Shown here one piece after another: positions 7,236 through 16,045 of a stretch of DNA of 64,000 nucleotides (position 1 is the first letter of the stretch; each line of letters opens with the position of its first letter). The notes under the pieces were generated by a model. The model was not told where the DNA came from, searched no databases, and saw only the letters and a list, made by a program, of their open reading frames with translations. The stretch is from Myxacorys californica WJT36-NPBG1 (GTDB lineage Bacteria > Cyanobacteriota > Cyanobacteriia > Leptolyngbyales > Leptolyngbyaceae), in the NCBI GenBank assembly GCA_019359315.1, contig JAHHHO010000029.1, forward strand, positions 1 through 64,000. The letters run 5' to 3'. The position numbers were made by a program, and so were the translations under genes.

Positions 7236-10200
7236 TTAAGCCGTTTCGGTTCCAGTTCTCAGCATTTGAGATTGTCGAATTGGAATTTCAATCGCAAACT
7301 CTGTACCGTGATTGGGCTGAGAAGCACACTTCAAATCGCCATTATGACGTTCAGTAATAATCTGATAACTGATAGACAGCCCTAAACCGGTTCCTTTGCC
7401 CACTGGTTTAGTTGTGAAAAAGGGATCAAAAATGCGCGATCGCACTCGGTCAAGTAGGCCTATTCCATTGTCTTTAATCCGAATGCTAATTCGGTTAGTA
7501 TTTACAACCATGGTACGAATCTGAATCGTAGGAGTGATATTATTTCTTGCTGCGATCGATTCTTCTAAAGCATCGATTCCGTTGCTCAAAATATTCATAA
7601 TCACTTGGTTTAGCTGAGCTGGATAGCATTCCACAGATGGCAATTCGCCATACTGCTTAATAATTTGAATGGCAGGGCGAGCCGGCGTTGAATTTAAGCG
7701 ATGCTGCAAGATCAGCAAGGTGCTATCGATTCCATCGTGAATATTGACAAATTTGCATTGAGCCTCATCCAAACGCGAGAAACTGCGTAGCGAAAGGACA
7801 ATCTGGCAGATTCGTTCAGCTCCACTTTGCATTGAGCGGAGCAGCTTCAGTGAATCTTGTCGAACGAAATCTAGATCAAAATCATCAATGAGATCCTGAA
7901 TCTCAACGCTAGGATTAGGAACATGCTTTTGATACAGATCAATCAACTCCAGAACAGTTTGGAAATATTCATCAAGGTGACCAAGATTGCCAGAGATGAA
8001 GTTAACAGGATTGTTAATCTCATGGGCAATGCCTGCTACTAGTTGCCCTAAACTTGCCATCTTTTCTCCTTGAATCAGGCGAAGTTGCGAGTCTTGTAAT
8101 TCTGCTAACGCTTGAGTTAATGCAGTTGTTTGTTGTCTTGTTTGCTCCAGTAATTCTGCTTGCTGAAGTGCAATTCCAAGCTGAACACCAATTTGTGTTA
8201 ATAAATTCTTCTCATCGGTTGCCCAGTGGCGCGGCTCTGACATTTGATAGGCGACCAGCAATCCCCAAAGCGTTTCGCCCTGCAAAATCGGCACAAAAAT
8301 CTCGTGACGTGAGTATTGTCCCACTTGAGTGTTGGGCAGAAAAATGTCAGCTACCGAGATTTGAGGAGTAGTGGTCGGCGTCCAGCCATCGGCGATCGAA
8401 TCTGCGACAAATTCGCCGCTCCAGTCCTTATAAAATCGGTAGATGGCGACGCGATCGACCTCCAAAAACTGACGGACTTCTTGAGTTGTTGTTCGAAAGA
8501 TAAAGTCGAGGTCGAGCGACTGGCGAATTTTGTCAATTGTTTTGAATAGCGATCGTTGTCGTTCGACTGCTTTTTCAATCTGTTTGACATATTCGGCTTG
8601 CTGAAGCGCAACGCCAAGCTGCGAGCTAATTTGAGTCAGCAACTGAACCTCATCGCTCTGCCAACGTCGAGGCTCAGAGTTTTGAAAAGCGGCAAGCAAG
8701 CCCCACAAGTGCTGATCATGATAGATTCCCGCGATCGCATAGGCACGCGCTTGATAGGTCTTCAACACTTGGCGATAGCAATCGGAGAAGCCTGCTTGGT
8801 CAACATCGTGGCACACGCGAACCCGCTCACCTTTTGCAAATCGTCCTCCTTGAGTGTCTTGCAGATGGGAATCAACGATCGGCAGCGTGGCTAACTGCTG
8901 CAAGCTACAGTCGCTCACGTTGTCGCGCAAATGAGAAGATGAAGTTAGGGGATGCACTAGCGAATCCCATTCAGGAGCCATCGATTCTGCCACAAACCGT
9001 CCGCTCCAATCTGGGTTGAATCGGTAGATCACAACGCGATCTGCATTCAATAACTGCTGCACTTCGTAAACTGCCGTCTGAAAGATCGTCTCTAGATCGA
9101 GCGACTGCCGAATTCGATCAATGGATGCTGCGATCGCACGCTGCCGTTCGACCGCTTTTTCTTGAGCTGCCACTTGCGCTAACAGCGCCGATTGCATCTG
9201 AACTTGTTTGAAATACTCGGCGTGCTGAAGCGCAACGCCCGTTTGTGTGCCGATCTGCGCCAACCAATCAACTTCCAATTGCTGCCAATCGCGAGGAGAC
9301 GTATTTTGATAGGCCGCAACCAAGCCCCAGAGACGCTCCCCCACCAGAATCGGCGCAATTGCAAAGGCTTTTGCCTGAAATTGTTCCAACAGTTGTATGT
9401 GACAGTCTTTCAGTCCCGCTTGATAGATGTCTGCGATCGCACAGGTTTCGTTGTGACTATATCGACCCCCTCCAGTCTCCTGTAAAAATGTATCTGCTAC
9501 CATTGGCGAACTGTTGACCAGTGGCTTCCACCCGTCTAAGAGCGACTCTGCTACAAACAAACCACTCCAATCTGGCAAGAATTGATAGATCGCCACCCGC
9601 TCGACTTGCAACAGCTTCCGGGCTTCCTCAGTCGCAGTTTGAAAAATGGTGTCTGGATCGAGCGATCGCCGAATCACATCAATTGTTTTTGCCAGTGCTC
9701 GTTCGCATTCTGTGGCACTCGCAAGCTGGATAGCTTGGGCTTGCACTTGCGTTAAATACTCGGCCTGAGTAATGGCGGTTCCCAACTGTTGCGCGATCTG
9801 TCCGACAAACTCGACTTCTGAATCTTCCCAGTTTCGTGCTTGCTGACAGTCATGAATACATAACAATCCCCACAGCGTTTCCCCTTTCAGTAAGGGAGCT
9901 ACCACATTCGCCCGGACTTGAAACTGCTCTAGCATCTTGAGATAGCAGTCTTGGTATTGCCCTGCGTGAATGTCTGCGATCGCGTGAATGTGCCCTTGCT
10001 GATAAAGCGGTGCTAACTGTTCACCAAAGCAATGATCCTGTATCTTATGGTGCATTGCTGATCCCCACGGCGCAGCAACATCTTCAGATACAAATTCGCC
10101 CTCCCAATTTTGTTCTGGGTAGAGCCGAAACACAACAATGCGATCGACCTTCAGCCATTGTCGAACTTCCGTCACCGCTGTTTTGAGAATCGTGTCGAGA

Positions 10201-10319
10201 TCAAGTGATTCTCGGATTCGAGCAATCACGCCAGCTAGCGCTTTCTGCTGGTCTGTCTCAGCTTCGACGGTTGAAGAATGTGGGCTTGAGGTGCTGATTA
10301 GGTGAGTCATGTTGTGCAT
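7236..10319 (-). CDS. Histidine kinase with four tandem GAF domains, candidate cyanobacteriochrome
   Basis: A 1027-residue soluble sensor kinase. GAF1 spans about 28-190, GAF2 210-375, GAF3 398-580 and GAF4 594-728. A coiled linker, HisKA (AHEINNPVNF, His766) and an ATPase domain follow, with N-box Asn909/Asn913, DNGIG at 950 and GKGTGLGLS near 974. GAF1 has a D-x-C-F motif (Asp95-His-Cys97-Phe) and a second cysteine (Cys125) 28 residues on, as in DXCF cyanobacteriochromes. GAF2 keeps a Cys-His pair (Cys306) and GAF3 has Cys514-Tyr. GAF4 lacks the cysteine-bearing helix. There is no receiver domain and no adjacent response regulator, so its output partner is elsewhere. Light sensing is inferred from motifs only. 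Confidence 0.9.
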   Translation of the reverse strand: MHNMTHLISTSSPHSSTVEAETDQQKALAGVIARIRESLDLDTILKTAVTEVRQWLKVDRIVVFRLYPEQNWEGEFVSEDVAAPWGSAMHHKIQDHCFGEQLAPLYQQGHIHAIADIHAGQYQDCYLKMLEQFQVRANVVAPLLKGETLWGLLCIHDCQQARNWEDSEVEFVGQIAQQLGTAITQAEYLTQVQAQAIQLASATECERALAKTIDVIRRSLDPDTIFQTATEEARKLLQVERVAIYQFLPDWSGLFVAESLLDGWKPLVNSSPMVADTFLQETGGGRYSHNETCAIADIYQAGLKDCHIQLLEQFQAKAFAIAPILVGERLWGLVAAYQNTSPRDWQQLEVDWLAQIGTQTGVALQHAEYFKQVQMQSALLAQVAAQEKAVERQRAIAASIDRIRQSLDLETIFQTAVYEVQQLLNADRVVIYRFNPDWSGRFVAESMAPEWDSLVHPLTSSSHLRDNVSDCSLQQLATLPIVDSHLQDTQGGRFAKGERVRVCHDVDQAGFSDCYRQVLKTYQARAYAIAGIYHDQHLWGLLAAFQNSEPRRWQSDEVQLLTQISSQLGVALQQAEYVKQIEKAVERQRSLFKTIDKIRQSLDLDFIFRTTTQEVRQFLEVDRVAIYRFYKDWSGEFVADSIADGWTPTTTPQISVADIFLPNTQVGQYSRHEIFVPILQGETLWGLLVAYQMSEPRHWATDEKNLLTQIGVQLGIALQQAELLEQTRQQTTALTQALAELQDSQLRLIQGEKMASLGQLVAGIAHEINNPVNFISGNLGHLDEYFQTVLELIDLYQKHVPNPSVEIQDLIDDFDLDFVRQDSLKLLRSMQSGAERICQIVLSLRSFSRLDEAQCKFVNIHDGIDSTLLILQHRLNSTPARPAIQIIKQYGELPSVECYPAQLNQVIMNILSNGIDALEESIAARNNITPTIQIRTMVVNTNRISIRIKDNGIGLLDRVRSRIFDPFFTTKPVGKGTGLGLSISYQIITERHNGDLKCASQPNHGTEFAIEIPIRQSQMLRTGTETA

Positions 10320-15295: not shown

Positions 15296-16045
15296 TTATC
15301 CGAATCGGTAGCCAAATCCTCGAACCGTAATAATGTACTGCGGGCTGCTGGGATCGATTTCTAGCTTTTCGCGCAGCCATCGAATGTGAACATCCACTGT
15401 TTTTGAATCGCCCAAATAACTGATTCCCCAGACTCGTTCTAGAAGTTCTTCGCGGGCAAAGACGCGGCGGGGAGTTCGCATAAACAGTTCGAGCAGCGAG
15501 AACTCTTTAGGAGAAAGACTAATTTCTTCACCGCGAACTGTGACTCGAAATTCTTGCAGATAGAGAACAACGTCTTGAAACTGAAGCACAGGAGAAGCTT
15601 GAGCGCTAGGTTGAGATTGGCGACGCAACAGCGCTCGACAACGGGCAACTAATTCTCGCAACCCAAATGGTTTTGTGAGATAGTCATCCGCCCCAACTTC
15701 CAGCCCTACCACGATATCAGTTTCGCTTCCTCTAGCACTCAAAATCAGAATCGGCATTGTGTTCCCCTCTTGCCGTATCAATCGGCACAGATCCAACCCC
15801 CCAATGTAAGGAATCATCAGATCCAGGATCAGCAAATCGATTGTGGGGATAGCAGATGCGATTTGCGATTCACTTTGCGAAGTCCTAGAGGAGCGCTGAA
15901 TTAGTTGAAGAGCCCGACGACCATCTTCGGCAGTCAGGACTTGATAGCCTTCTTGAGTGAGGGCAAGGGTAATGGATTCAAGAATCAAAGGTTCATCGTC
16001 AACGACTAAAATGCAAGCAAGATAGGGAGTTTCGGACGGTTGCAT
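15296..16045 (-). CDS. OmpR-family response regulator, SphR-like, next to pst genes
   Basis: A 249-residue two-domain regulator. Receiver domain at about 10-140: VVDDEP acidic pair, phospho-acceptor Asp75 in LLILDLMIP, and the KPFG lysine. A winged-helix DNA-binding domain follows at about 150-249 (SPKEFSLLELFMRTPRRVF ... VDVHIRWLREKLE ... TVRGFGYRFG). It is closely related along its length to the regulator at 48164-48931, which is paired with a SphS-like kinase. Here no kinase is adjacent, and the gene follows pstB on the same strand behind a PHO-box-like element at 16337-16366. Phosphate control is inferred from paralogy and location. Confidence 0.92.
   Translation of the reverse strand: MQPSETPYLACILVVDDEPLILESITLALTQEGYQVLTAEDGRRALQLIQRSSRTSQSESQIASAIPTIDLLILDLMIPYIGGLDLCRLIRQEGNTMPILILSARGSETDIVVGLEVGADDYLTKPFGLRELVARCRALLRRQSQPSAQASPVLQFQDVVLYLQEFRVTVRGEEISLSPKEFSLLELFMRTPRRVFAREELLERVWGISYLGDSKTVDVHIRWLREKLEIDPSSPQYIITVRGFGYRFG

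Follow-up and report, generated by a model that had tools for sequence, protein, structure and literature searches.

Myxacorys californica encodes a predicted multi-colour cyanobacteriochrome histidine kinase with DXCF, XRG-clade and insert-Cys type GAF domains

A single gene of Myxacorys californica WJT36-NPBG1 most likely encodes a multi-sensor histidine kinase for UV/blue and long-wavelength light, and we consider it highly probable that a multi-colour cyanobacteriochrome (CBCR) histidine kinase is the best explanation of the protein as a whole. The gene lies at 7236..10319 on the minus strand of the window, by which we mean the entire stretch analysed (the first 64,000 nucleotides of contig JAHHHO010000029.1), and from its ATG specifies 1027 amino acids, in which a Pfam scan found four GAF stretches and a HATPase_c domain (2e-21) together with a weak HisKA match marginally under the Pfam cut-off (25.6 vs 26.9 bits). 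All of its parts are read from the minus strand: GAF1 (aa 26–192; 9744..10244), of the DXCF type; GAF2 (aa 207–373; 9201..9701), of the XRG clade; GAF3 (aa 394–581; 8577..9140), of the insert-Cys type; GAF4 (aa 590–735; 8115..8552), a shortened GAF; and the kinase part (aa 736–1027; 7239..8114). A known photoreceptor family gains a well-preserved, ordinary member, with nothing new in kind, and the set of colours that the kinase would perceive appears richer than the initial annotation described. Its bilin attachment, colours, signal relay, kinase control and partner are features that we infer.

The assignment of GAF1 as a DXCF cyanobacteriochrome domain, and hence as a putative bilin-binding domain, is well supported by alignment, by predicted fold, by conservation and by a tree blind to the motifs themselves. 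The residues on which the initial annotation had based this reading, Asp95-His96-Cys97-Phe98 (10026..10037, minus strand) and a Cys125 located 28 residues past Cys97, are all present in the translation. The first four align to the DPCF of TePixJ and include the second, C10-linking cysteine, and Cys125-Tyr126 (9942..9947, minus strand), on the bilin helix, holds the canonical bilin cysteine with Tyr in place of the usual His, a Cys-Tyr pair also found in 10 of 34 DXCF relatives. When aligned to TePixJ residues taken from the PDB sequence match, Cys97, Cys125, Asp95 and Asn138 fall, gap-free, in the columns of Cys494, Cys522, Asp492 and Asn535, which bears out the claim that the two cysteines are spaced as in TePixJ. 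The spacing is 28 in every one of the 34 homologous DXCF domains compared, which were chosen by motif (D-x-C plus the canonical cysteine), and of the 50 positions that show at least 85% conservation among them GAF1 retains 46. After shuffling of the GAF1 residues, D-x-C-[FILY] with a cysteine at +28 arose in 127 of 200,000 trials; as evidence for the motif pair, this test is outweighed by alignment and conservation. The best PDB sequence matches of GAF1 are cyanobacteriochromes, and the top Foldseek matches of its AlphaFold model (mean pLDDT 84.9, built from 15 sequences) are CBCR and phytochrome GAF domains, with TM of about 0.8–0.9 against CBCR crystal structures including that of TePixJ. 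In a tree of 90 GAF domains, from which the Asp-motif, loop and canonical-cysteine columns were excluded, GAF1 falls inside a 37-row clade (support 99/96) with the D-x-C motif in 35 rows; the same tree, a check that the initial annotation had proposed, places GAF2 in the XRG clade and GAF3 in an insert-Cys clade.

Phycocyanobilin is likely made in the host, since the genome encodes a haem oxygenase (6e-89) and one Fe_bilin_red gene, an Fe-dependent bilin reductase (8e-75). Alternatively, the GAF1 cysteines might be relics in a kinase that has lost bilin binding and senses something else, a reading suggested by the loss of one cysteine in one GAF of several homologues and by the missing bilin helix of GAF4. 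However, GAF1 keeps both cysteines, Asp95 and nearly all of the conserved DXCF positions, the open reading frame is intact, and the genes for bilin synthesis are present in the genome; we regard this alternative as very improbable.

The description of GAF1 as TePixJ-type holds for motif and spacing but fails in the tree, where the 37-row clade excludes TePixJ, as does the 70-row set (100/96) uniting that clade with XRG; we reject it on tree position and pocket residues. GAF1 and the TePixJ GAF (PDB 3VV4, 4FOF, 4GLQ) share both cysteines, the Asp, the 28-residue spacing, the Asn at 138 (535 in TePixJ) and the GAF fold, but His523 and Gln526 of TePixJ correspond to Tyr126 and Met129 in GAF1, and by alignment Phe76 (10092..10094, minus strand), the beta-2 Phe equivalent, and Phe133 (9921..9923, minus strand), the helix alpha-4 Phe equivalent, stand where TePixJ has Val and Leu. 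The outputs also differ, a histidine kinase in the Myxacorys protein and a chemoreceptor in TePixJ. The GAF1 clade is instead of a "DHCF" type and adjoins the red/green (XRG) lineage, in agreement with the published view that XRG domains derive from DXCF lineages (PMC11284453).

Because Phe76 and Phe133 are present, a blue/teal photocycle is favoured for GAF1 over a violet/green or blue/green one, as a prediction from sequence. In red/green as well as teal-DXCF domains, the beta-2 Phe has been tied to photoproducts that are twisted (trapped-twist) and blue-shifted (PMC5578081), and the violet/blue-green sensing first proposed for the kinase is less apt for GAF1, these two residues, associated with teal photoproducts, being absent from TePixJ. 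NpR1597g1 of Nostoc punctiforme has been classed as Teal-DXCF (PMC5240096); compared through presumed NpR1597 orthologues in Nostoc (L142, L143 and L146, discussed below), it resembles GAF1 in its DHCF motif, N-terminal position and histidine kinase output, and the g1 domains of these orthologues are 62% identical to GAF1, although in the Myxacorys protein an extra XRG GAF follows. A TePixJ/Tlr0924-like blue/green sensor, with a green rather than a teal photoproduct, is a less likely reading that nonetheless carries some weight: the motif and its spacing are the same as in TePixJ, and phycoviolobilin formation and a blue/green cycle are typical of DXCF domains (PMC11284453). Against it are the position of TePixJ in the tree and its Val and Leu at the two Phe sites, the beta-2 Phe being tied to teal photoproducts (PMC5578081), with the caveat that sequence cannot settle colours. 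Somewhat less likely again is a GAF1 that has both cysteines but forms no phycoviolobilin or no reversible C10 linkage, as in a red/blue or violet/orange cycle. Tyr126 and Met129 do set its pocket apart from that of TePixJ, and DXCF members with teal, green or orange photoproducts are known (PMC5578081), yet the 46 of 50 strongly conserved DXCF positions that GAF1 retains speak against such a departure. In the favoured blue/teal cycle, GAF1 would most likely bind phycocyanobilin through Cys125 and isomerise at least part of it to phycoviolobilin; in the dark, Cys97 would add to C10 to give a violet/blue-absorbing form, and light would isomerise the 15,16 bond and break the Cys97 bond to give a teal-to-green form, more probably teal. 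Two further cysteines of GAF1, Cys154 and Cys158 (LLCIHDC; 9846–9860, minus strand), are near-invariant among related DXCF domains; Cys154 is characteristic of the group to which GAF1 belongs, and TePixJ has Ile there.

GAF3, judged by its residues and its place in the tree, belongs to the insert-Cys subfamily and would be a second type of two-cysteine sensor. The initial annotation had correctly read its canonical pair, Cys514-Tyr515 (Cys514 at 8778..8780, minus strand), but missed Cys471 (8907..8909, minus strand), which lies 12 residues before Asp483 in an elongated loop preceding the Asp motif (NVSDCSLQQLA; homologous loops read NISECSLK, NVSECSAK and NISECSLQ). In the tree computed without the loop columns, GAF3 groups with five domains (99/95) and then with nine (98/88), all with a loop cysteine, so that all ten members of the clade carry one in the insertion; NISECSLK, NISECSLQ and NVSDCSLV are examples of the loop text they share. 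Given this shared loop cysteine, we reject the reading of GAF3 as a plain Cys-Tyr domain. In published insert-Cys domains the second cysteine likewise occupies a loop, 26 residues before the Asp in Mbr3854g4 (C713-D739) and 14 in Mbl3738g2 (C569-D583) (PMC5240096). GAF3 shares with these two, and with NpR1597g2 and NpF2164g3, an insertion cysteine before the Asp motif, D-x-x-L, the canonical cysteine and a relationship to XRG, but has CSLQ for CXXK/R and DSHL for DTYL. The CXXR/K motif at the insert cysteine has been described as poorly conserved (PMC5240096), and one clade relative (L035) also has CSLQ. This deviation could be taken to mean that Cys471 is a chance loop cysteine and GAF3 a plain single-cysteine sensor of the red/green type; we find that improbable, given that Cys471 occupies the same loop as the cysteines of the other nine domains, that an NxSxC loop motif is common to most of the clade, and that the clade is recovered without the loop columns.

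The best Nostoc match of GAF3 shows 59% identity in the search and 58% against the full-length protein, where it is GAF2. Numbered from the frame's first start codon, its loop cysteine is residue 298 in two genomes; in a third it is 299. The loop cysteine of NpR1597g2 is C298 (PMC5240096), and this domain is a near-UV/blue sensor that retains both bonds (PMC5240096; PMC5578081). Residue numbering and architecture alone lead us to regard these Nostoc proteins as presumed orthologues of NpR1597, and it was through such presumed orthologues that the named insert-Cys and teal-DXCF sequences were compared with GAF3 and GAF1; their last GAF lacks a canonical cysteine, which is at odds with NpR1597g4, reported to photoconvert (PMC6121604). 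As an insert-Cys sensor, GAF3 would most likely rely on Cys514 and Cys471 to detect light in the near-UV or violet. In the Myxacorys genome, a different contig encodes a second protein (L024, a 1430-aa open frame) with tandem insert-Cys GAF domains.

GAF2 has the canonical Cys306-His307 exactly where the initial annotation had put it, and was placed in the XRG clade with support of 100/96 in the tree computed without the motif columns. It shares this clade, Asp276, Cys306-His307 and the motif Leu with the XRG cyanobacteriochromes AnPixJg2 and NpR6012g4, but has Val274 for the gate Trp, so that the XRG motif WXDXXL reads VADTFL; close GAF2 relatives mostly carry Ile at the Trp position. Cys306 is the probable attachment site for phycocyanobilin in GAF2, which would absorb at a longer wavelength.

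The remaining GAF, overlooked as a shortened domain in the initial annotation, lacks the stretch that holds the bilin-binding helix and contains no cysteine at all. The same deletion is found in some 40 homologues, in the last or penultimate GAF, and those in the aligned set are 53–64% identical to the Myxacorys sequence; a clear match (E below 1e-50) was found in only 8 of 145 Cyanobacteriia genomes. Its AlphaFold model is poor (mean pLDDT 62.9), with Foldseek TM of about 0.34 and 12–16 Å rmsd. GAF4 would bind no bilin; by way of helical linkers it would signal to the kinase which state each of the three sensors is in. The kinase would then autophosphorylate His766 and pass the phosphate to a response regulator. 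More tentatively, the short GAF may be an undescribed transducer module, a dedicated, helix-less combiner through which one kinase integrates the chemically distinct two-cysteine photocycles of DXCF and insert-Cys domains with the signal of a Trp-less XRG sensor, a possibility that we consider less likely than not. The kinase part itself has complete H, N, G1, F and G2 boxes (His766 in AHEINNP, NILSNGIDAL, DNGIG, FDPFFTTK and GKGTGLGL). A scan of ten neighbouring ORFs found no response regulator adjacent to the kinase gene; the nearest one, of the OmpR type (15299–16045, minus strand), is about 5 kb away and shows no sign of partnership.

Sequence relatives differ in which sensor GAFs precede this output. 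Most Nostoc relatives are arranged as DXCF-XRG-DXCF-short-kinase; these proteins (L061–L076 among others) match the Myxacorys kinase in length and layout, with 51–55% identity and a short GAF4 before the kinase, but their GAF3 is a DXCF domain whereas that of Myxacorys is of the insert-Cys type. Two others (L148 and L149) read DXCF-insertCys-short-kinase, and the presumed NpR1597 orthologues read DXCF-insertCys-short-noCys-kinase. The Myxacorys order, DXCF-XRG-insertCys-short-kinase, is unique within the relatives sampled. To judge from these domain orders, GAF modules seem to have been swapped around an unchanging core of short GAF and kinase. One intact kinase may read UV/blue, teal and longer-wavelength channels, which would make it useful for studying how photostates are combined, and the common short GAF before the kinase offers a testable site of signal integration. 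In Mastigocoleus testarum BC008, two contigs (L088 and L093) carry copies of the kinase region with equal match scores, each beside a second related kinase; the region may have been duplicated, or the second copy may be an artefact of assembly.
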